IMG/VR virus record: IMGVR_UViG_3300010885_043172
Coordinates: 1 to 38,161 of that record
Direction: 5' to 3' (one strand)
Length of the DNA stretch: 38,161 nt
From: a virus
Part shown: one piece after another, positions 2,647-23,308 of the stretch
Numbering within the stretch: the first letter of the stretch is position 1
How the letters are laid out: every line of letters starts with the position of its first letter
Program-made: the position numbers and the translations under genes
Notes under the pieces: generated by a model
Seen by the model: only the letters and a program-made list of their open reading frames with translations
The model's database searches: none
What the model was told of the DNA's origin: nothing

Positions 2647-3111
2647 ATGACTTATATTAATCTTCCAAATGCATTTAAAGAATTTGACAAGTTTTTTGTA
2701 GGCTTTGATCCACTTGTAAAAAGACTTTCGAATGCTGCTGAGCAAACTGTCAAGCTAGCTCAAAACTATCCTCCGTATAATATTAAAAAGATTGATGATA
2801 ACAAATACACCATTGAAATGGCTGTTGCTGGATTTAGTAAGCAAGATATTGAAATTGAGCTAGCTAATTCAAAACTTATCATTAAAGGTAGTGTCCATCA
2901 AGGAGAACCTGCTGAACAAGATTCAAATGGCGAATGGACTTGGCCAGAAATTTTGTATCAAGGGCTTGCTATGCGCCCATTTACACGCCAGTTCACACTT
3001 GCGGATAATGTAGAGATTAAGAATGCTGAACTTATTAACGGTATTCTTAATATCGTTCTGGAAGCTATTATTCCAGACGAAAAGAAACCAGTAAAAATTG
3101 AAATTAAATAA
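2647..3111 (+). CDS. small heat-shock protein, Hsp20/IbpA family
   Basis: A 154-aa protein with an alpha-crystallin domain at about residues 42-152: YPPYNIKKIDDNKYTIEMAV, then the A-G-F-SKQDIEIEL strand pair, KLIIKG, an R-F-TRQFTLADNVE segment and the closing GILNIVLE motif (the family's GVL-type strand). These ATP-independent chaperones hold unfolding proteins; Hsp20 genes are common in T4-like phages, where they may help head or tail proteins fold. The ATG follows TAGGAGAAATAA, a strong ribosome binding site. Length is normal for the family. Confidence 0.9.
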   Translation: MTYINLPNAFKEFDKFFVGFDPLVKRLSNAAEQTVKLAQNYPPYNIKKIDDNKYTIEMAVAGFSKQDIEIELANSKLIIKGSVHQGEPAEQDSNGEWTWPEILYQGLAMRPFTRQFTLADNVEIKNAELINGILNIVLEAIIPDEKKPVKIEIK

Positions 3112-14343: not shown

Positions 14344-14355
14344 TGAGGAATGATT

Positions 14356-15258
14356 ATGAAAAGTATTGTAACTGGTGGTGCTGGTTTTATTGGCTCACAC
14401 TTAGTGGATAAATTGATTGATATTGGCCATGAGGTTATTGTCATTGACAACGAAACTGCTACTTGCCACGATCATTTTTATTATAATGATCGTGCTTCAT
14501 ACTATAAGTATGATATTGCCGATTATGATTCAGTTCGTTCACTTTTTGATAATGTAGACTATGTGTTTCATCTTGCCGCTGAATCGCGCATTCAGCCATC
14601 CATCGATAACCCCCTACTTTGCTTTAGAACTAATGCACTAGGAACATCAGTTGTTCTTCAGTGTTCCCGTGAGTCTGGCGTTAAGAGGGTTATGTATTCT
14701 TCTACTTCATCTGCATATGGTAAAAATACTCCACCACTTGTAGAAACTATGACTGAGGATTGCCTAAACCCATATTCAGTTGCAAAGGTTGCAGGTGAAA
14801 AAATGTGTAAGATGTATTCTGATCTATTTGGTCTTGAAACTATCGTCTTTCGCTACTTCAATGTATATGGCGTTCGTGAACCTCTTAAGGGCGAATATGC
14901 ACCAGTGATTGGTTTGTTTATACGCAAACATCAAGCTAATCAATCGCTCACAATTGTTGGTGATGGTGAACAGCGCCGTGACTTTACTCATGTTGATGAT
15001 ATTGTTCAAGCCAATATAAATGCTATGAATTTTATTGCAGAGGAAGGTAATAATTATTTTGGCACTGTATTTAATGTAGGCACTGGAACCAATCATTCTG
15101 TCAATCAAATTGCTGCTCTTATTTCTGACAATGTAGAATTTATTCCGCCTCGTGTCGGTGAAGCTCGTGAAACCAAGGCAAATAATGACAAAATCAGAAG
15201 TGTACTTAACTGGTCGCCCACCAAGAACATCGAAGATTATATTAAGGAACAGCTATGA
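14356..15258 (+). CDS. NAD-dependent sugar epimerase/dehydratase
   Basis: A 300-aa extended short-chain dehydrogenase. GGAGFIG (residues 7-13) binds NAD, FHLAAE follows, SSTSSAYG gives the catalytic Ser/Thr and YSVAK (Tyr140, Lys144) the catalytic pair. RYFNVYG and RDFTHVDDI are typical of UDP-glucose/UDP-GlcNAc 4-epimerases and NDP-sugar dehydratases. It would act on a nucleotide sugar in the cytoplasm as an early step of the glycan pathway. ATG 14356 has GAGGA 6 bases upstream, whereas ATG 14350 touches it. The next gene overlaps by 4 bases. 4-epimerase is the best guess; exact substrate unknown. Confidence 0.88.
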   Translation: MKSIVTGGAGFIGSHLVDKLIDIGHEVIVIDNETATCHDHFYYNDRASYYKYDIADYDSVRSLFDNVDYVFHLAAESRIQPSIDNPLLCFRTNALGTSVVLQCSRESGVKRVMYSSTSSAYGKNTPPLVETMTEDCLNPYSVAKVAGEKMCKMYSDLFGLETIVFRYFNVYGVREPLKGEYAPVIGLFIRKHQANQSLTIVGDGEQRRDFTHVDDIVQANINAMNFIAEEGNNYFGTVFNVGTGTNHSVNQIAALISDNVEFIPPRVGEARETKANNDKIRSVLNWSPTKNIEDYIKEQL

Positions 15259-16124
15259 AAAAAGATGTGATAGTTGGTAGTATTACTAATTATAATTTTG
15301 ATCAAATTAAGCCTTGGGTAAATTCTCTAGATCAGTGTGGATTTACTGGCGATAAAGTTATGATCTGTTATAATATAAACACTTCAGTCGCTGATGAGAT
15401 GATATCTAGAGGATATAAAATATTTGCTTTTAATCAAATTGGTTCTAATTTAGTATATAATAATCCAAATTTTAATATAGTGGTTGATCGTTTTTTTCAC
15501 ATGTGGCTTTTCTTTAAACAGATAAAAGATCAGTATAGATATATTATTTCTACAGATGTGCGCGATGTTATTTTTCAAGGAAATCCGTCTGATTGGCTTG
15601 AAATTAATATGAAAGATAAAAAGATTAATGCTTCTAGTGAGTCTATCCTTTATAAGGATGAAATCTGGGGAACGAATAATCTTTTAAAATCTTATGGTCC
15701 CGACATTCATGCTGCATTTAATAATAATTTAATTGTAAATGCTGGTGTTATGGCAGGTGAAATTGAAACAATGTTAGATTTATTTCTCAATATATATGTC
15801 ATGTGCAATGGAGCATCATCGCATAATATTTCTGGTGGAGGCGGACCTGATCAAGCAGCATATAACATTTTACTTTCATCCAAGATATATCAAGATGTTA
15901 CTAATATAGCTTCATCTGAAGATGGATGGGCTTCCCAATTGGGGACTACAGGATTTCAGTCATCATATGGCGCTGAAGGAAAACTAGTAGAAGCGCAACC
16001 ACAAATTATTAATGGTGTTATATGCACTTCCAAAGGAATTCCATTTACGATTGTTCATCAATATGATCGAATTCCAGAATTGAATGAGTATATATTTAAT
16101 AAGTATAAAAAGGATAACAAATGA
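15255..16124 (+). CDS. GT-A type glycosyltransferase-like protein
   Basis: A 289-aa protein. IISTDVRDVIFQGNP (Asp101, Asp104) resembles the metal-binding DxD region of GT-A enzymes, and it is followed by NAGVMAGE, GPDQAAYN and, near the end, FTIVHQYDR, an arrangement seen in hexosyltransferase-like families. It probably transfers a sugar from a nucleotide donor to a surface glycan or phage acceptor. It overlaps the epimerase gene and the next gene by 4 bases each, so all three are co-translated. Donor and acceptor cannot be told from sequence alone. Confidence 0.7.
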   Translation: MKKDVIVGSITNYNFDQIKPWVNSLDQCGFTGDKVMICYNINTSVADEMISRGYKIFAFNQIGSNLVYNNPNFNIVVDRFFHMWLFFKQIKDQYRYIISTDVRDVIFQGNPSDWLEINMKDKKINASSESILYKDEIWGTNNLLKSYGPDIHAAFNNNLIVNAGVMAGEIETMLDLFLNIYVMCNGASSHNISGGGGPDQAAYNILLSSKIYQDVTNIASSEDGWASQLGTTGFQSSYGAEGKLVEAQPQIINGVICTSKGIPFTIVHQYDRIPELNEYIFNKYKKDNK

Positions 16125-16885
16125 AAATAGCATTGTTATTGCCAGGACAACTACGATGGATGGATAATCCTCATACAGTTCAAACACATCATGATTATAT
16201 TATCAATAAATATGATACTGACATTTTTGGCTCTTTTTGGATTCCAGATGATAGTGAGGTTATTCTTGATTCTCGGCATGTAAACTATGCGCCATCACCT
16301 TCAGATAGTTTAGCTTGCAATAAAATTCAAGAAAAATATAATTTTAAAAAAATAGAATTTATACAACCAAAACAATTTAGTCAGGCTGAAGAATTTTATA
16401 CTAAAGTAAAAAAGCATAAATGGCCTAATTTATGGGAAGCAGGTTGGTTAGATAGAGCTAATGTATTTAATAATATTTTTAGTCAAATGTATGCTATCCA
16501 ACGAGTAACAAGACTTTTAGATAATTTTATGTTAAGTAATTCAATATCTTATGATATGATTGTTTTATCAAGACCTGATTTATGTATATGGTCTTATCCA
16601 GAGCTTAATGAATTGGATAAAAATAAATTTTATTTGAGCAATCATCATGGTTTATTTCCAGACCTTACCTTTATTTTTGGACCATCTTTTATTAGAGCAT
16701 TCTCTGAAGTTTTTGATAATTTGCTTCATATTAATGATGATGAACTTTATAGTCTGTGGGAACCAAATGCTGAAGGAATTAAATTTAACTCATACCGCAG
16801 AAATTTTTCTTTAGAACACTTGACACCAATACCAATTCCAGTTAGAATAGTACGTGGACAAGATTGCAAAGGGCCTCAGTGGTAA
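16121..16885 (+). CDS. putative glycan-biosynthesis protein (LPGQLR-type)
   Basis: A 254-aa protein that starts MKIALLLPGQLRWMDNPHTV, followed by YDTDIFGSFW and, near residue 150, DMIVLSRPDLCIW. The opening G-Q-L-R strand and the later R-x-D resemble a set of uncharacterised, possibly glycosyltransferase-fold proteins in capsule and phage sugar clusters (recollection). No signal peptide or membrane segment. Very AT-rich. Its position between a GT-A protein and a nucleotidyltransferase supports a sugar role. Confidence in coding is high, in function low. Confidence 0.6.
   Translation: MKIALLLPGQLRWMDNPHTVQTHHDYIINKYDTDIFGSFWIPDDSEVILDSRHVNYAPSPSDSLACNKIQEKYNFKKIEFIQPKQFSQAEEFYTKVKKHKWPNLWEAGWLDRANVFNNIFSQMYAIQRVTRLLDNFMLSNSISYDMIVLSRPDLCIWSYPELNELDKNKFYLSNHHGLFPDLTFIFGPSFIRAFSEVFDNLLHINDDELYSLWEPNAEGIKFNSYRRNFSLEHLTPIPIPVRIVRGQDCKGPQW
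16820..16848 (+). promoter_or_regulatory. possible internal sigma70 promoter
   Basis: TTGACA (16820-16825), a 17-bp spacer and TAGAAT (16843-16848) lie inside the end of the LPGQLR-type gene, with a start point about 35 bases before the nucleotidyltransferase ATG. The match is good but the site is in coding DNA, so it may be chance. Confidence 0.35.
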
Positions 16886-16889
16886 TATT

Positions 16890-17624
16890 ATGAATATTGT
16901 TATTCCAATGGCTGGAGAAGGAACTAGATTTCCAAAGGCCAAATATAAAAAGTCTAAACCTTTAATTGATGTACTGGGTAAACCTATGATTCAAGCTGCT
17001 ATTGAATCATTAAATATCGATGGTCAATATAACTATATTATTCGAAAAGAACACAAAGATGAAGTATGGGATATATTAAATGACCTCACCCCTGACTGCA
17101 ATATAATTTCTGTAGAGACTACTACTGGAGGCCCGGCAGATTCAGTTCTTCTTTTTAATGACGTGATCAATAATAACGAAGAACTTATTGTAGCAAATTG
17201 CGACCAAATTATGTGGTGGGATTCTGAGATGTTTCTTGTTAATGCTAGACACGAAAAATATGATGGGATGATTGTCACATATCATTCAGACACACCAAAA
17301 AATTCATATGCTCGAATCAATAATCAAGGGTTTGTTGTTGAAATAAAAGAGAAAGTAATTATTAGTAATATTTCTCTTAACGGTATTCATTATTGGAAAC
17401 ATGGGTCTTATTTTGTGGATAGTGCAAACCGAATGAAAGCCTGTAATGATACGGCTCCAAATGGTGAGTATTATGTGGCACCTACATATAACTATATGAT
17501 AAATGATCTTGATAAAAAAGTAGGTGTTTACCATATACCAAATTTTCAGCACAATCCAGTGGGGGTTCCAGAAGACCTCGAACAATACATTTTTAAGGTA
17601 TCTTATGAAAAAAACAAGAATTGA
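16890..17624 (+). CDS. sugar-phosphate nucleotidyltransferase
   Basis: A 244-aa protein with the NTP-binding signature MNIVIPMAGEGTRFPKAKY, then KPLIDVLGKPMI, TTTGGPADSV and VANCDQI, where the Asp binds metal. It would join a sugar-1-phosphate or similar phosphate to a nucleotide. It lacks the left-handed beta-helix of GlmU-type enzymes and is about the length of a lone Rossmann domain. ATG 16890 is taken because it starts exactly at the conserved strand; an upstream in-frame start would overlap the previous gene. A second, fused nucleotidyltransferase lies at 21810, so the cluster may make two activated donors. Confidence 0.82.
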   Translation: MNIVIPMAGEGTRFPKAKYKKSKPLIDVLGKPMIQAAIESLNIDGQYNYIIRKEHKDEVWDILNDLTPDCNIISVETTTGGPADSVLLFNDVINNNEELIVANCDQIMWWDSEMFLVNARHEKYDGMIVTYHSDTPKNSYARINNQGFVVEIKEKVIISNISLNGIHYWKHGSYFVDSANRMKACNDTAPNGEYYVAPTYNYMINDLDKKVGVYHIPNFQHNPVGVPEDLEQYIFKVSYEKNKN

Positions 17625-17931
17625 AGATTATAAAAGAGGATGGTTTATTGGAAATTTTGAGCCATCTGTATTAAAAACAAAAGAATTTGAAGTGTCTTAT
17701 ATGCGACACGCTAAAGGAGAAATATGGGATGCTCATTATCATAAAGAAAGCATTGAATATAATGTTTTAATTGAAGGAAAAATGATCATTCAAGGAATAA
17801 CATTAGTGAGTGGTGATGTATTTGTTTTTGATAAAGGTGAGATTGCAGACCCAGTATTTCTTGAAGATTGTAAATTAATTGTTGTGAAAGTGCCCAGTAT
17901 TATAGGAGATAAGTATGAAGTTTTTCCGTGA
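17605..17931 (+). CDS. cupin-fold protein
   Basis: A 108-aa single-domain cupin: DAHYHKESIEYNVLIEGKMI gives the His-x-His and the following Glu of metal-binding motif 1, and LVSGDVFVFDKGEIADPVF corresponds to motif 2, lacking its usual His. Cupins of this size serve as isomerases, epimerases or sugar-binding proteins. The ATG lies 20 bases inside the upstream gene and its own end overlaps the RuBisCO-like gene by 17 bases, so it is tightly coupled to both. It may act on the same substrate as the RuBisCO-like enzyme (inference from position). Confidence 0.72.
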   Translation: MKKTRIEDYKRGWFIGNFEPSVLKTKEFEVSYMRHAKGEIWDAHYHKESIEYNVLIEGKMIIQGITLVSGDVFVFDKGEIADPVFLEDCKLIVVKVPSIIGDKYEVFP

Positions 17932-19105
17932 ACGTGAAGAAATTAATGAACAAGATTATGTTATAGCAACATATTTGCTTGGCAGCACAAAATCAATACG
18001 CGATGCAGCTTGGAATTTAGCAATTGGTCAATCTGTTGGCAATCCAAATGTTCGCAATGAATGGGAAACTGAATTGATGTTTGAGCATCATTCATGTATT
18101 ATTTTAGCGAATGAAAAACAGTTAGAAAAAATCGGAATAATGCCCGTTCAGATTGCATTTCCGATTGTTAATACAGATTGGGAAACTGATGGAATAAGTC
18201 ATCTTTTATGCCAGCTAATGGGTGGCCATGTTGATATAGATGTTGTTACCAGTTGTAGATTAATTAATTTGGAAATTCCAGTTTCCGTCAAGAAAAAATT
18301 CCTTGGGCCAAAATTTGGCATCACAGGCTTTAGAGATTTTACAGGACAATACGGCAAGCCATTATTTGGAAGTATTGTTAAGCCAAAAATTGGTATTACC
18401 CCTGAAGTGCTGCTAGAGATGGTTAAACAGATGGTAGACGGTGGGGTTGATTTCATCAAAGAAGATGAAATTATGGTTAATCCAATTATTGCCCCGCTTG
18501 AGCGTAGAGTAGATATTATTTCAAATTATCTAGCTAAACAGTCTAAAAAAGTTGTATTTTGCCACACAATTAACTGCGATCCTCATATTCTTCATGATAG
18601 AGTGTCCAAAGTACATGAACTTGGTGGCAATGGAGTACACATTAATGTATGGTCAGGATATGGAGCTTATAATAGTATTAGAAAGCTTGATTTGCCAATT
18701 TATCTTCATTTTCAAAGCAGCGGCGCTAAAGTCATCACAGACCAGTCGCATAAATACAGCATTTCGTGGTCTGTTATGTGTCAGTTAGCAACTCTTATGG
18801 GCGTTGACACTATTCAAACAGGTATGATTGGTGGTTATAGCAATGATGATCCCGTAGAAGTTAGAGAGTGTATTGATATTTTGCAGAATGGTAATACACT
18901 TCCAGCTTTAAGCTGTGGATTTCATCCGGGTTTAGTTGACTATGTAACGGAAACTGTTGGTAACGATTATTTGGCAAATGCAGGTGGAGCCGTACATGGC
19001 CATCCTAACGGTACAGTATCCGGCGCTAAGGCTATGCGACAAGCAATTGAAAAAAATTATGAAAAAGAATACCTATTAGCGATTTCTCAATGGGGAAAAA
19101 AATAA
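17915..19105 (+). CDS. RuBisCO-like protein (form IV type)
   Basis: A 396-aa homologue of the RuBisCO large subunit. The barrel has GSIVKPKIGIT (Lys156/Lys158, matching Lys175/177), DFIKEDE with Lys182, Asp184 and Glu185 in place of the carbamylated Lys201 and metal ligands Asp203/Glu204, ALSCGFHPG (Ser333 for Ser379) and AGGAVHGHPNG for the phosphate-binding GGG-GHP segment. Residues needed for carboxylation are changed: loop-6 Lys334 is Tyr308, His327 is Gln301, and His294/Arg295 fall in LHFQSSG. The N-terminal domain is short and the usual Asn123 is not evident. Thus an enolase- or isomerase-type reaction on a sugar phosphate is likelier than CO2 fixation. AGGAG precedes the ATG. It lies among sugar-activation genes, unusual for a phage. 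Confidence 0.85.
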   Translation: MKFFREREEINEQDYVIATYLLGSTKSIRDAAWNLAIGQSVGNPNVRNEWETELMFEHHSCIILANEKQLEKIGIMPVQIAFPIVNTDWETDGISHLLCQLMGGHVDIDVVTSCRLINLEIPVSVKKKFLGPKFGITGFRDFTGQYGKPLFGSIVKPKIGITPEVLLEMVKQMVDGGVDFIKEDEIMVNPIIAPLERRVDIISNYLAKQSKKVVFCHTINCDPHILHDRVSKVHELGGNGVHINVWSGYGAYNSIRKLDLPIYLHFQSSGAKVITDQSHKYSISWSVMCQLATLMGVDTIQTGMIGGYSNDDPVEVRECIDILQNGNTLPALSCGFHPGLVDYVTETVGNDYLANAGGAVHGHPNGTVSGAKAMRQAIEKNYEKEYLLAISQWGKK

Positions 19106-19120: not shown

Positions 19121-19792
19121 ATGAAAGAATATAATTATACACAATGGAGCAATGATCTTACTAAAGATATCAGATTTGGTGATCATAGAGATGATATGGA
19201 CTGGAATGATGGAAGTTTTCCAGAAGTAGATACTTGGTCTATTCACGTTCAGCACCCAGTTACAGGTGTTGGTCAGACTCAAAGTGAATGCAATATCGAC
19301 AACTTATTGAAATATTTTAATTCAATTAAGAATGATTGCAAATGCATTGTTGAAATTGGTGTTGATTGTAATGGCAGTCCAACTGATATGACTTCAACCA
19401 AAAAACTTCTACTTGAAAAACATCCAGATACTGTATATATTGGAGTTGATATTGAAGATAAGTCATATTTAAACGATGAAATTAACAATATTTTTACAAT
19501 TAAGATTGACTCTTCAAATATTGATGGTGTTATGGAATTTGTTAGGTCCAAAAATATTGAAAGTATTGATTTTCTATTTATTGATGGGTGGCATAGCATC
19601 AATCAGGTTTTGAAAGAATGGGAATACACTAAGTGGCTATCTCCAAATGGAATAGTTGGATTTCATGATACGGCGGTGCACCCAGGGCCAGCAATGTTCC
19701 TTAAATATCTTGATCGTAATATTTGGAATGTTGATCTACCATGCCAGCATATGCGTAATGATTTTGGAATTGGTTTTACATGGAAAAAGTAA
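19121..19792 (+). CDS. methyltransferase-fold protein
   Basis: A 223-aa protein with a class I SAM-methyltransferase-like core: CIVEIGVDCNGSPTDMTSTK (motif I region), TVYIGVDIEDKS (acidic end of strand 2), then IDFLFIDGWHSINQVLKEWE and LSPNGIVGFHDTAVHPGP. The DGWHS and FHDT motifs resemble the Methyltransf_24/cephalosporin-hydroxylase group found in glycan clusters. It could methylate or otherwise modify a sugar. The glycine-rich motif is weak (E-I-G-V-D), so SAM use is likely but not certain. The ATG follows AAAAGGAAAGTAAAT. The WavE-like gene overlaps its end by 13 bases. Confidence 0.65.
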   Translation: MKEYNYTQWSNDLTKDIRFGDHRDDMDWNDGSFPEVDTWSIHVQHPVTGVGQTQSECNIDNLLKYFNSIKNDCKCIVEIGVDCNGSPTDMTSTKKLLLEKHPDTVYIGVDIEDKSYLNDEINNIFTIKIDSSNIDGVMEFVRSKNIESIDFLFIDGWHSINQVLKEWEYTKWLSPNGIVGFHDTAVHPGPAMFLKYLDRNIWNVDLPCQHMRNDFGIGFTWKK

Positions 19793-20598
19793 AATACCCA
19801 ACTGTGTCTCTTGTTATTCAGGGGCCAATAAACAATAAAAAAAAATTAGATTTTATTGAACATATTCCATATTATAAAACTTTATTTGATGAAATTATTG
19901 TTTCCACTTATACAGAGCATCTTATTGGTAATAGTGATTTTATTGATTTCTGCGAATGTAATAACATTATTATTCGACATATTTCAGAAAATATTGGTAA
20001 TGTTAGAAATGATGCAAGAGTTGGTTATCAGACTTTAACGACATATACAGGATTAAGGGCTGTCACCAATCCATATGCAATGAAACATAGAACTGATGAA
20101 CGATATTCTAATCTTGATAAATTAATTGATAAATTTCTTATTGATGATGAAAAATGGGTTTCTGGCAGTCTTTTATTCGGTCCAAAAGTATATCGATTAT
20201 TCCATGCCGCAGATCATTTGTTTATAGCTAAGACGGATAAACTATTGATGACATTTAGAATGACTCTTGACAATCTTAAATGTGGTAAGATGGAAGTCAA
20301 CTTTCCTGGCGATACAAATGGTGCTCCTGAAATTACTTATACAAAAAACTTTATACGTGTATCGGGCGAGAAACCAGTAGATGAAAATCATGACTATTTA
20401 ATTCGAAAATACTTCGATATTGTTAATAATTCTGAACTTTTTCCATTTATATCAAGAGAAAATGGCGCACAAAAAATTTACAGATCAATTGATGATATGG
20501 GGCCTAATAGAATACAATATCAAACAATTGAAGATATCTTGACTAAAGATTATATTGAAGGTCATGAAAATTGGAATCACCCTAACTGTTTTTATTAA
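19780..20598 (+). CDS. WavE-family glycan synthesis protein
   Basis: A 272-aa protein. VSLVIQGPINNKKKLDF at the start, DEIIVSTY, then HISENIGNVRNDAR and MKHRTDERYSNLDKLIDKF match the WavE family, named for a Vibrio cholerae LPS-core gene and regarded as glycosyltransferase-like. The motif of R-x-D-x-R after TNPYAMKH fits the family pattern. It likely transfers a sugar onto LPS, capsule or a phage acceptor. It starts within the end of the methyltransferase-fold gene. Family call is good; specific reaction unknown. Confidence 0.78.
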   Translation: MEKVKYPTVSLVIQGPINNKKKLDFIEHIPYYKTLFDEIIVSTYTEHLIGNSDFIDFCECNNIIIRHISENIGNVRNDARVGYQTLTTYTGLRAVTNPYAMKHRTDERYSNLDKLIDKFLIDDEKWVSGSLLFGPKVYRLFHAADHLFIAKTDKLLMTFRMTLDNLKCGKMEVNFPGDTNGAPEITYTKNFIRVSGEKPVDENHDYLIRKYFDIVNNSELFPFISRENGAQKIYRSIDDMGPNRIQYQTIEDILTKDYIEGHENWNHPNCFY

Positions 20599-20609
20599 GG
20601 AATTATAAT

Positions 20610-21065
20610 ATGATTTATATTGCACATAGAGGTCTTTTTACAGGCCCTGATAAAGAAAAAGAAAACCATCCAGATCAGATTGATCTTTCTTTATCAAAAG
20701 GTTATGACTGTGAAGTCGATTTATGGCGTGTTGACAATAAGTTATGGCTTGGTCACGATGGCCCATCGTATGAGATTAATGAGGATTATATAGAAAATAG
20801 ACAATTAAAACTTTGGATTCACGCAAAGAATCTCATGGCACTGCGCTGGTTGTCAGAAACCTCATATAATTACTTCTGGCATCAAAATGATGATTTTACA
20901 TTAACTAGTTTTGCTCATATTTGGACATATCCAGATAAAGAACTAACTGATCTTAGTATATCTGTCATGCCAGAGTGGAAATATACACTTAGTGAGTTGA
21001 AAGAATATAAGCCAAAATGTTATGGAATTTGTAGTGATTTTATTGAATTAATCTCGAATAGTTAA
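20610..21065 (+). CDS. GDPD/PI-PLC-like phosphodiesterase domain protein
   Basis: A 151-aa protein with glycerophosphodiester phosphodiesterase motifs: AHRG (His6, Arg7), EN (18-19), GYDCEVDLW (Glu35, Asp37) and LGHD (His49, Asp50), which form the metal and acid/base site. It is shorter than ordinary GDPDs (about 240 aa), so the barrel looks incomplete or minimal, as in a group of capsule-linked proteins. It may release or process a polyol-phosphate used in the glycan. The ATG follows AAGGAATTATAAT. The kinase-like gene starts 5 bases after its stop. Confidence 0.72.
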   Translation: MIYIAHRGLFTGPDKEKENHPDQIDLSLSKGYDCEVDLWRVDNKLWLGHDGPSYEINEDYIENRQLKLWIHAKNLMALRWLSETSYNYFWHQNDDFTLTSFAHIWTYPDKELTDLSISVMPEWKYTLSELKEYKPKCYGICSDFIELISNS

Positions 21066-21069
21066 TCTA

Positions 21070-21819
21070 ATGTTAGATGAAAAAATAATAAAATTTCTAA
21101 ATGGTCATTCTGGCTCTGAAATTATGCTGATGGAATCAGATAAACTGTTTGTAAGAAAGATAGGAAATACTACGAGAAATTATAAAAAACTAATTGAGCT
21201 TAAAGAAGAAGGATATTCGGTACCTGATATTTATTCATTTTTGGACGATGTTCTTGATATGGAATATATCAATGGTCTAGATATATCCAATTATCTATTG
21301 TATAATAACGCCAGTAAACTATATTCATTTATTTGTAGTACCATAGATAATTTTAGACATACCTCTAAAATAAAAGATTATACTGAAGTATATCATATAA
21401 AATTAAAATATGTGGATGAAGAAAATGTATTTCCATTTACAAAAAATGAACTTATAGAATGTCTACCAAAATATCTTCCATCAACTCAATATCATGGCGA
21501 TATGACTCTAGAAAATATTATATGGTCTGATAGTGGTGAATTTTATATGATAGACCCATTAGAAAGTGAATATGATTCTTATATATTCGATATAGCTAAG
21601 ATGCGACAAGATTTGGAATGCCAATGGTTTTTTAGAAATAGTACATCAAAAATTGAAACAAAAGTTCATTCATTACAGGAAAAAATACTGGAGAAATATC
21701 CTGAAGCATCCAATGATAATCTACTTATTTTGATGTTGCTTAGGGTATACCCTAATACTAAAAGTGGTGATGGGGACAGAGAGTTCCTACTAAAGGAGAT
21801 TAAAAGATTATGGAAATAA
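21070..21819 (+). CDS. APH/choline-kinase-like small-molecule kinase
   Basis: A 249-aa protein with an aminoglycoside-phosphotransferase fold: LFVRKIGNT supplies the ATP-binding lysine region, QYHGDMTLENIIW holds the catalytic HGD (His142, Asp144) and Asn149, and FYMIDP gives the metal Asp162. Relatives phosphorylate choline, sugars or polyols (LicA-type) before a nucleotidyltransferase activates them. The next gene, a nucleotidyltransferase-HAD fusion, overlaps it by 10 bases, matching that two-step logic. No strong ribosome binding site; coupling from the gene before is probable. Substrate unknown. Confidence 0.75.
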   Translation: MLDEKIIKFLNGHSGSEIMLMESDKLFVRKIGNTTRNYKKLIELKEEGYSVPDIYSFLDDVLDMEYINGLDISNYLLYNNASKLYSFICSTIDNFRHTSKIKDYTEVYHIKLKYVDEENVFPFTKNELIECLPKYLPSTQYHGDMTLENIIWSDSGEFYMIDPLESEYDSYIFDIAKMRQDLECQWFFRNSTSKIETKVHSLQEKILEKYPEASNDNLLILMLLRVYPNTKSGDGDREFLLKEIKRLWK

Positions 21820-22841
21820 TTGTGCCATCTGCTGGCTTATCATCTAGGTTTCCTAGTATGAGGCCCAAATATCTATTATACGATTATACTGGAAAGTTGA
21901 TGATTTATCAAGCTCTAAAGCCATATCTAAACAAATATAAGATTACTATTGGCATACTTGAAGAGCACGATAAATTATATGATGCTGTTGAAAGTCTCCG
22001 TCATGAATTTGGTGATCTTGTAGATATTTTTCTATTCTCAGAAACTACTACAGGCCCTGCTGATACCGTGTGCCAAATGTTGGAAAGAATTACTGCCACT
22101 CGTGGAGATACGAGCGTTCTAATTAAAGACTGCGATTCCTTTTTCGATCATACACCTATCAATGGCAACTACGTATGTACCTCTAATATATCAGAACATG
22201 ATACACTAAGAAGAGTATCGGCAAAAAGCTTTATTATATACAATAACCAAGATATCATCACTGATATTATGGAAAAATCAGTGTCGTCCGATACATTCTG
22301 CTGTGGTGGGTATAAGTTTGAATCTGCACAGCAATTCATCAACATTTATAAGTCCTTGACTGTAAGTGGAGAGCCATTTGTTTCTGACGTGATTTCCAAG
22401 ATGATTTCAAATGGCTCTGTTTTTATCAAAAATTCAGTTTCAAACTATGTAGACGTAGGAACTGCTGAAGAATGGTTTGAATACAATGATGTCCCAGTTA
22501 TCTTCTGTGATATTGACGGTACTATTATAAAAAATCAAGGTAGAATTGGAAAAAATAACTATAACACATCTCCTATATTGCTTCAAAATAATATTGACAA
22601 ATTACTTGAATATCAAGCCAAAGGGAGTCAGATTATATTTACAACATCAAGACCTACATATACGAAACAACTCACAGAAAAAATGCTTGAAGATATTGGA
22701 TTTAAAGACTTTAAATTGATTATTGGACTATTAAATAGCAGACGAATCTTGATTAATGATTTTAATGCTGCTAATCCTTGGCCTAGAGCAGTGGCTCTAA
22801 ATATTGAACGTGATTCAAATACACTAGGATATTATCTATAG
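21810..22841 (+). CDS. nucleotidyltransferase-HAD phosphatase fusion
   Basis: A 343-aa two-domain protein. Residues 1-225 form a nucleotidyltransferase (IIVPSAGLSSRFPSMRPKYL, TTTGPADTV, LIKDCDSFF with a metal Asp), and residues 228-343 form a small HAD domain with IFCDIDGTII (Asp234, Asp236) and FTTSRP. The fusion suggests activation of a phosphorylated small molecule coupled to phosphate removal, a pairing seen in capsule loci. It is translated together with the APH-like kinase. It lacks a membrane segment, so it acts in the cytoplasm. Confidence 0.82.
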   Translation: MEIIVPSAGLSSRFPSMRPKYLLYDYTGKLMIYQALKPYLNKYKITIGILEEHDKLYDAVESLRHEFGDLVDIFLFSETTTGPADTVCQMLERITATRGDTSVLIKDCDSFFDHTPINGNYVCTSNISEHDTLRRVSAKSFIIYNNQDIITDIMEKSVSSDTFCCGGYKFESAQQFINIYKSLTVSGEPFVSDVISKMISNGSVFIKNSVSNYVDVGTAEEWFEYNDVPVIFCDIDGTIIKNQGRIGKNNYNTSPILLQNNIDKLLEYQAKGSQIIFTTSRPTYTKQLTEKMLEDIGFKDFKLIIGLLNSRRILINDFNAANPWPRAVALNIERDSNTLGYYL

Positions 22842-22888: not shown

Positions 22889-23308
22889 ATGATGTTAGAA
22901 TGTTTGATTATAGGCGATTCAATCGCTGTTGGTACCAAGATGTTTTCTCCTGCTGAATGTGTTTCATATTCAAAAGGTGGATGGAATACATGGCAATGGA
23001 ATAAGAAATGGGGAAATACCCCTCTTAATGCTAAAACCGTAGTCATTAGCCTTGGTACTAATGATCACAAGGGCGTTAATACGTATAAAGAACTTTCCAA
23101 AATTCGTTATCGTATAAACTCTTTAAAAGTTGTTTGGATTATGCCGCCTTGCAATAAAGGCTTTTGTAAGTCAAATATTAATACTACAATAAGAGAAATT
23201 GCTCACCATTATGGTGATGTTATTATCTCTACACAATTTCTTCAACCTGATCATATCCATCCTTCTTCTCGTGGATATAAGGAGCTTGTAAAGAAAGCAG
23301 TGATGTGA
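22889..23308 (+). CDS. SGNH/GDSL-type hydrolase
   Basis: A 139-aa protein with the SGNH blocks: IIGDSIAVG (nucleophile Ser in block I), SKGGWNT (Gly block), VISLGTNDHKG (Asn block III) and DHIHPSSRGY (Asp and His of block V). Such enzymes remove acetyl or acyl groups from sugars or lipids, so it may edit the glycan made by this cluster or act on host surface sugar. It is short for the family (about 180-200 aa) but all four blocks are present. The ATG follows AAAGGAAAATA. No signal peptide. The stop is overlapped by the GTG of a broken gene start. Confidence 0.82.
   Translation: MMLECLIIGDSIAVGTKMFSPAECVSYSKGGWNTWQWNKKWGNTPLNAKTVVISLGTNDHKGVNTYKELSKIRYRINSLKVVWIMPPCNKGFCKSNINTTIREIAHHYGDVIISTQFLQPDHIHPSSRGYKELVKKAVM

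Follow-up and report, generated by a model that had tools for sequence, protein, structure and literature searches.

Enolisation to a metal-bound enediolate is a step common to the RuBisCO superfamily, and several described proteins resemble the gene reported here. MtnW, the 2,3-diketo-5-methylthiopentyl-1-phosphate enolase of the YkrW clade of form IV RuBisCO-like proteins (RLPs), has the same fold, the same metal site and the same lost loop-6 lysine. However, our RLP lies in a separate clade, misses the MtnW cut-offs, has no methionine-salvage context and carries Gly104 at the site of the catalytic Lys98 of MtnW. OiaX and the apionate-type RLPs share the RuBisCO fold and sugar-acid phosphate chemistry with it, but their genes lie in catabolic operons alongside four-carbon acid sugar kinases, and they form a separate clade. 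Archaeal form III RuBisCO is the best profile match, but the residues for carboxylation and for the second phosphate are replaced in our RLP. The DeepYkr RLP of Rhodospirillum and Rhodopseudomonas, a 5-methylthioribulose-1-phosphate 1,3-isomerase, also acts on a sugar phosphate, and its gene adjoins that of a cupin methylsulfurylase in the MTA-isoprenoid shunt (PMC5893883). It differs in its sulfur-salvage context; we regard it as a mechanistic precedent and not as evidence of kinship. Finally, the RpiB/LacAB domain of cyanophage Bellamy occupies the same slot in a nucleotidyltransferase-cupin-GDPD module; its fold is unrelated, making it an analogue of the RLP and not a homologue.

The window (the whole stretch of viral DNA analysed, 38,161 nucleotides) comes from a T4-like phage, as shown by its T4-type genes for replication (DNA polymerase, UvsX, DnaB-like helicase and primase). 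The RLP gene lies in the following cluster.

14350..15258, + strand: NAD-dependent sugar epimerase/dehydratase (PF01370, E 2e-59)
15255..16124, + strand: probable glycosyltransferase (phrog_1579 glycosyltransferase, E 1e-4)
16121..16885, + strand: protein of unknown function (phrog_13607, E 5e-32; its cluster occurs in 26 viral RLP loci)
16890..17624, + strand: sugar-nucleotidyltransferase (PF00483; best PDB profile match 4evw, E 9e-36)
17605..17931, + strand: small cupin (HxH...E motif conserved; Cupin_2 below cut-off in relatives)
17915..19105, + strand: RuBisCO-like protein, 396 aa (PF00016; AlphaFold model; own clade)
19121..19792, + strand: methyltransferase (Methyltransf_24, PF13578 just above cut-off; its cluster is at +1 in 20 loci)
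19780..20598, + strand: WavE-like protein (PF07507, E 3e-4, below cut-off)
20610..21065, + strand: short GDPD-like protein, 151 aa (HRG...EN...E.D...GHD motifs kept; model pLDDT 97.6)
21070..21819, + strand: APH/RIO-like small-molecule kinase (PF01163 above cut-off, PF01636 below)
21810..22841, + strand: second nucleotidyltransferase with a fused HAD (EcbF-like) domain (weak TIGR03992 and HAD matches)

The initial annotation had placed the RLP among nucleotidyltransferase, WavE-type and epimerase genes; NTP_transferase and Epimerase matches were found, and the WavE match is weak. For the GDPD-like protein, Foldseek and profile searches gave only weak matches, to GDPDs. Homologues indicate that two of the open reading frames begin further upstream than the genes: the nucleotidyltransferase frame opens at GTG 16854 and homologues begin at ATG 16890, and the cupin frame (17524-17931) opens at GTG 17524 and homologues point to ATG 17605. 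The overlap between cupin and RLP genes that had been noted earlier amounts to 17 bases. Elsewhere in the window, 22889-23308 encodes a small protein whose GDS, GTND and DxxH motifs make it a probable SGNH hydrolase of the glycan deacylase type, with no PHROG match, and 2647-3111 encodes an Hsp20-type small heat-shock protein (phrog_432).

The gene at 17915-19105 encodes a real, complete RuBisCO-fold protein. It matches the RuBisCO large-chain family PF00016 with 131 bits (E 6e-38; cut-off 30.1), and its AlphaFold model (pLDDT 94.4, pTM 0.92) spans the whole fold. The nearest solved structures are form III RuBisCO (2cwx; VIA Z 44.9 over 377 residues) and MtnW with 2,3-diketohexane 1-phosphate bound (2oem; VIA Z 44.7, 29% identity), MtnW being the best single-sequence PDB match. 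By itself, this shared fold shows no function. The gene is under strong purifying selection (pN 0.07, pS 0.78 in comparison with locus L003).

We mapped active-site residues by aligning the window RLP to reference RuBisCOs and 62 relatives. As the initial annotation had observed for the window protein, the carbamylation lysine and metal ligands are kept: Lys182, Asp184 and Glu185 (Lys201, Asp203 and Glu204 of RuBisCO) are invariant in 62 of 62 relatives. Equivalents of Lys175 and Lys177 (window Lys156 and Lys158) are likewise invariant. The phosphate-binding segments, also described as retained, are indeed conserved, with the equivalents of Ser379, Gly381 and Gly403 invariant and that of Gly404 present in 59 of 62 (window Ser333, Gly335 and Gly357-Gly358). 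Other positions are replaced throughout the 62: Glu60 by Gly38, Thr65-Trp66 by Asn43-Pro44, Asn123 by Gly104, His294 by Gln267, Gly380 by Cys334 and, extending the reported loss of loop-6 Lys334 to all these relatives, Lys334 by Tyr308. The Arg295 equivalent is serine or lysine. The reported loss of His327 (window Gln301) holds for a subgroup: this position is Gln in 23 of the 62 relatives and His in 39, and the loss is therefore a feature of the window subgroup and not of the family at large. We also looked for a catalytic base; the positions of MtnW Lys98 and RuBisCO Asn123 both correspond to Gly104, and no base was recognised there.

The residues expected of a carboxylating RuBisCO of forms I-III (Lys334, His294, Asn123, Glu60 and Thr65-Trp66) are thus absent from every relative, and we predict that the RLP is not a carboxylase. 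It is a form IV RLP if the term is taken broadly, for any RuBisCO fold that has lost the carboxylation residues.

A phylogeny against the RuBisCO and RLP clades, as the initial annotation had proposed, set this family apart. Our careful tree held 77 proteins, with MtnW, OiaX and related RLPs, form I, and archaeal/DPANN and Patescibacteria RuBisCOs as references; the DeepYkr (R. rubrum/R. palustris RLP1) and IV-Photo RLPs were absent from it. The window, viral and cellular RLPs formed one clade on a long stem (support 100/100, stem 0.94), apart from all of these references, and a wider quick tree agreed. By this placement the window RLP is in none of the sampled RuBisCO or RLP groups. Profile scores against solved structures were close together for form III (194 bits), MtnW (182) and a Burkholderia RLP (182), and lower for the Chlorobium RLP (C. 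tepidum, IV-Photo), at 134 bits. The window RLP also fell far short of the NCBIfam cut-offs for rubisco_III (175 vs 497 bits), MtnW (168 bits for a cut-off of 409, and 145 for one of 514) and OiaX (150 vs 700 bits). A survey of the ocean in 2007 left RuBisCO homologues unplaced (PMC1821046), and these could include the present clade.

The family is widespread in metagenomic viral sequences, with 54 close viral relatives of the window RLP and at least 297 viral contigs detected by profile search. Neither the window nor a SAR11 query found it among 50,697 phage records, and it therefore has no isolate there; it has no PHROG match. One viral copy, on a large phage contig (L048:8001-9167), is broken by a frameshift or stop, which may reflect either faulty assembly or decay of the gene. 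Cellular RLP loci number 23, with 38-59% identity, and come from SAR11 single cells, Legionella, Azospirillum, Elusimicrobia, Verrucomicrobia, Patescibacteria, DPANN archaea (nanoarchaea) and others. The contig binned as Sphingobacteriales (L077) has small phage-like ORFs around the RLP and may be mis-binned. Since only 2 of 297 Pelagibacterales genomes (including G002, a source locus) have the gene and 4 of 22 Legionella genomes have it at full length, it is an accessory gene in both groups. Some SAR11 copies (L058-L060) are nested within the viral part of the tree and others (L063 and L069) fall outside it, which suggests gene exchange between phages and cells.

We scanned the neighbourhoods of 118 RLP loci (89 once near-copies were removed). 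The recurring neighbours were a nucleotidyltransferase, a cupin, a short GDPD-like protein, methyltransferases, a WavE-like protein and an epimerase. The nucleotidyltransferase was present in 60 of 69 viral and 19 of 22 cellular loci. Of 67 viral loci, 52 had it no more than two genes away from the RLP, compared with a background of 0.9% for more distant genes of the same loci; at this distance the cupin was found in 45 of 67 and the GDPD-like protein in 33 of 67. In most viral loci the cupin is directly 5' of the RLP. Among 16 cellular genomes, 14 had a nucleotidyltransferase family match beside the RLP, and in the two exceptions the RLP was on a short contig (3.1 and 3.7 kb). Cellular loci had the cupin in 5 of 22 and the GDPD-like protein in 11 of 22. 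Because the nucleotidyltransferase is nearly constant in both phages and cells, we conclude that it is the ancestral partner, with the cupin and GDPD-like protein as frequent additions.

The sugar-gene context described for the window therefore stands as far as nucleotidyltransferase linkage is concerned, in phages, bacteria and archaea, but the cupin is not a conserved partner in cells. Membership of a known RLP clade, combined with a lack of sugar genes in relatives, had been named as the result that would count against the initial annotation. The RLP instead has a clade of its own and a near-constant nucleotidyltransferase. The clade is well supported as genetically linked to sugar activation. 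It should also be noted that in SAR11 loci L063-L069 the order is GDPD-like gene, nucleotidyltransferase, RLP and second nucleotidyltransferase, so that the RLP is flanked on both sides.

We searched viral contigs with cupin, nucleotidyltransferase, PMM and RpiB sequences and labelled the resulting modules. Among 91 non-identical loci collected with the cupin, 72 had the RLP, 7 a PMM-like protein, 10 a nucleotidyltransferase-HAD fusion without RLP and 2 neither. All unique cupin contexts comprised 104 with RLP (2 of them also with the HAD fusion), 59 with RpiB, 15 with the HAD fusion, 14 with PMM and 6 others, counts that are not frequencies because several baits were used to collect the loci. 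No context had RLP together with RpiB, and none had RLP together with PMM. The window's own second nucleotidyltransferase has the HAD-fused architecture of the RLP-less loci.

Nucleotidyltransferase-RpiB fusions numbered 81 in viral contigs; the cupin lay downstream of nearly all of them, and none had an RLP. In the isolated cyanophages Bellamy (gene 206) and SynMITS9220M01 (SynMITS9220M01_192), the fusion adjoins a cupin and has a LacAB_rpiB domain (PF02502, E 4e-32). Both genes (L504:3841-4995 and L505:3841-4995) are annotated as 'phosphatase' and are actually this fusion. The PMM-like protein belongs to PF03332 (E 7e-24). In 11 of 56 PMM loci the order is nucleotidyltransferase-cupin-PMM-GDPD, with the PMM-like protein in the place of the RLP; none of these has an RLP. 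Such operons, with a protein of the eukaryotic-type phosphomannomutase family, are seen in L313, L326 and L379-L389. A further 43 PMM-like viral loci lack the module, and PMM-like genes also occur in cyanophages S-SSM7 and P-TIM68. Another fusion partner was seen in cyanophage S-SKS1 (L588:6001-7425), where a nucleotidyltransferase of the same family is joined to DHBP synthase (RibB; PF00926, E 5e-65). A separate DHBP synthase gene lies near the RLP in six loci (L034, L244-L246, L257 and L261). A candidate DHBP synthase-nucleotidyltransferase fusion in RLP locus L096 was rejected, as the ORF is a DnaB-like helicase.

Because RLP, RpiB, PMM-like and HAD proteins share a slot in the module, they appear to fill one pathway step with different folds, and two of the alternatives to the RLP come from families of sugar-phosphate isomerases and mutases. 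In the nucleotidyltransferase tree the PMM type and the RpiB type each had one origin, with about nine state changes in all. With so few replacement events, a switch of partner may have come with a switch of nucleotidyltransferase substrate, and enzymes of the slot need not be isofunctional. The HAD and PMM-like members could be phosphatases. The two loci with both RLP and HAD fusion, the six with a nearby DHBP synthase, and Gly104 in place of a recognisable base also weigh against an isomerase reading.

On balance, the RLP is probably a RuBisCO-fold sugar-phosphate isomerase that acts before nucleotide activation for surface-glycan synthesis. Since it keeps the Mg2+ site (with carbamylated Lys182), Lys156, Lys158 and the Ser333/Gly335/Gly357-Gly358 phosphate segment, it is expected to bind a sugar-phosphate substrate by one phosphate group. 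It would then remove a proton from the carbon next to the carbonyl, giving a metal-bound enediolate, and return the proton elsewhere instead of adding CO2, the residues for which are gone. Loss of the CO2-handling residues with retention of the phosphate glycines leads us to expect isomerisation or tautomerisation of a sugar phosphate, and RpiB in the same slot points to an aldose-ketose type of isomerisation via an enediol(ate). The proposal in the initial annotation of enolisation without carboxylation is thus supported by the residues and, independently, by RpiB and PMM-like proteins in the same slot. The adjacent nucleotidyltransferase would join the isomer to a nucleotide, possibly once the cupin had acted on it, and the surrounding glycosyltransferase-like genes would use the resulting NDP-sugar for glycan synthesis. 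Glycan assembly is the most likely destination of the activated product because of the glycosyltransferase, WavE-like, epimerase and methyltransferase neighbours. The glycan may remodel the host surface or decorate the virion. Isomerase activity, the order of steps and this end use are all inferred.

More tentatively, the whole clade may consist of sugar-phosphate isomerases of nucleotide-sugar synthesis, interchangeable in phage genomes with the unrelated RpiB and with PMM-like proteins; shifting the carbonyl along the carbon chain might achieve what a mutase achieves by shifting the phosphate. In that case viral 'rbcL' genes of this kind would belong to glycan synthesis and not to carbon fixation. 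We find it unlikely, if deserving of weight, that the RLP is no equivalent of RpiB and instead tautomerises, epimerises or decarboxylates a keto intermediate of nucleotide-sugar synthesis, with chemistry like that of MtnW or OiaX, and that RpiB and PMM loci make other sugars. Most characterised RLPs do catalyse tautomerisation or decarboxylation (NCBIfam names; PMC5893883), the replacement events are few, and nucleotidyltransferases of the RpiB type have diverged to about 30% identity with that of the window. However, RLP and PMM loci have the same gene order, cupin and GDPD-like partner, and the PMM-type nucleotidyltransferases, a single clade, branch among the RLP-type ones.

A LicD-family gene lies beside the RLP-nucleotidyltransferase pair in three Legionella species (L075:8940-9776, - strand, and likewise L076 and L078), which hints at transfer of a phospho-substituent. 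Together with the phosphodiesterase-like GDPD protein of the module and the kinase adjoining the second nucleotidyltransferase of the window, this would suit RLP, cupin and nucleotidyltransferase making an activated non-sugar or polyol phosphate (for example CDP-linked) for LicD-like transfer and not a glycosyl donor. We consider this rather improbable: LicD was recognised only in Legionella, and the nucleotidyltransferase profile is nearest to 4evw and sugar-1-phosphate enzymes, a match that does not settle the substrate.

A phage-borne methionine-salvage enzyme for sulfur recovery, either MtnW or a MTRu-1P 1,3-isomerase with a cupin methylsulfurylase, was rejected as very improbable on residues, cut-offs, tree and context. 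The RLP-cupin pair does recall the MTA-isoprenoid shunt of R. rubrum and R. palustris, and MtnW is the best single-sequence PDB match, but the protein reached 145-168 bits against MtnW cut-offs of 409-514, falls outside MtnW in the tree, and has glycan genes in the scanned neighbourhoods with no mtn genes. An auxiliary viral RuBisCO boosting host CO2 fixation agrees with the fold and intact metal site, but we reject it as the least credible reading on the same four grounds, given the carboxylation residues replaced in 62 of 62 relatives, a score far from the rubisco_III cut-off (175 vs 497 bits), the separate clade, and linkage to sugar-activation genes with no Calvin-cycle context in the neighbour scan.

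In the literature searched, which lay mostly outside subscription papers, no phage RLP was described from a nucleotide-sugar cluster, and the SAR11 O-chain paper makes no mention of RuBisCO. The family is known broadly as form IV RLP; within the literature searched, its gene context and the role proposed for it are new. Viral surveys label rbcL as a carbon-fixation gene (PMC12607003, PMC8506154), and viral members of the present clade annotated in this way are not to be counted as carbon fixation. This family is abundant in uncultured viruses, and the four-gene module and its RpiB-fused version in an isolated cyanophage make function directly testable. To our knowledge, the RLPs characterised so far act in catabolism or salvage. 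An RLP clade associated with sugar activation would extend the RuBisCO fold to anabolism and connect it with the making of surface glycans.
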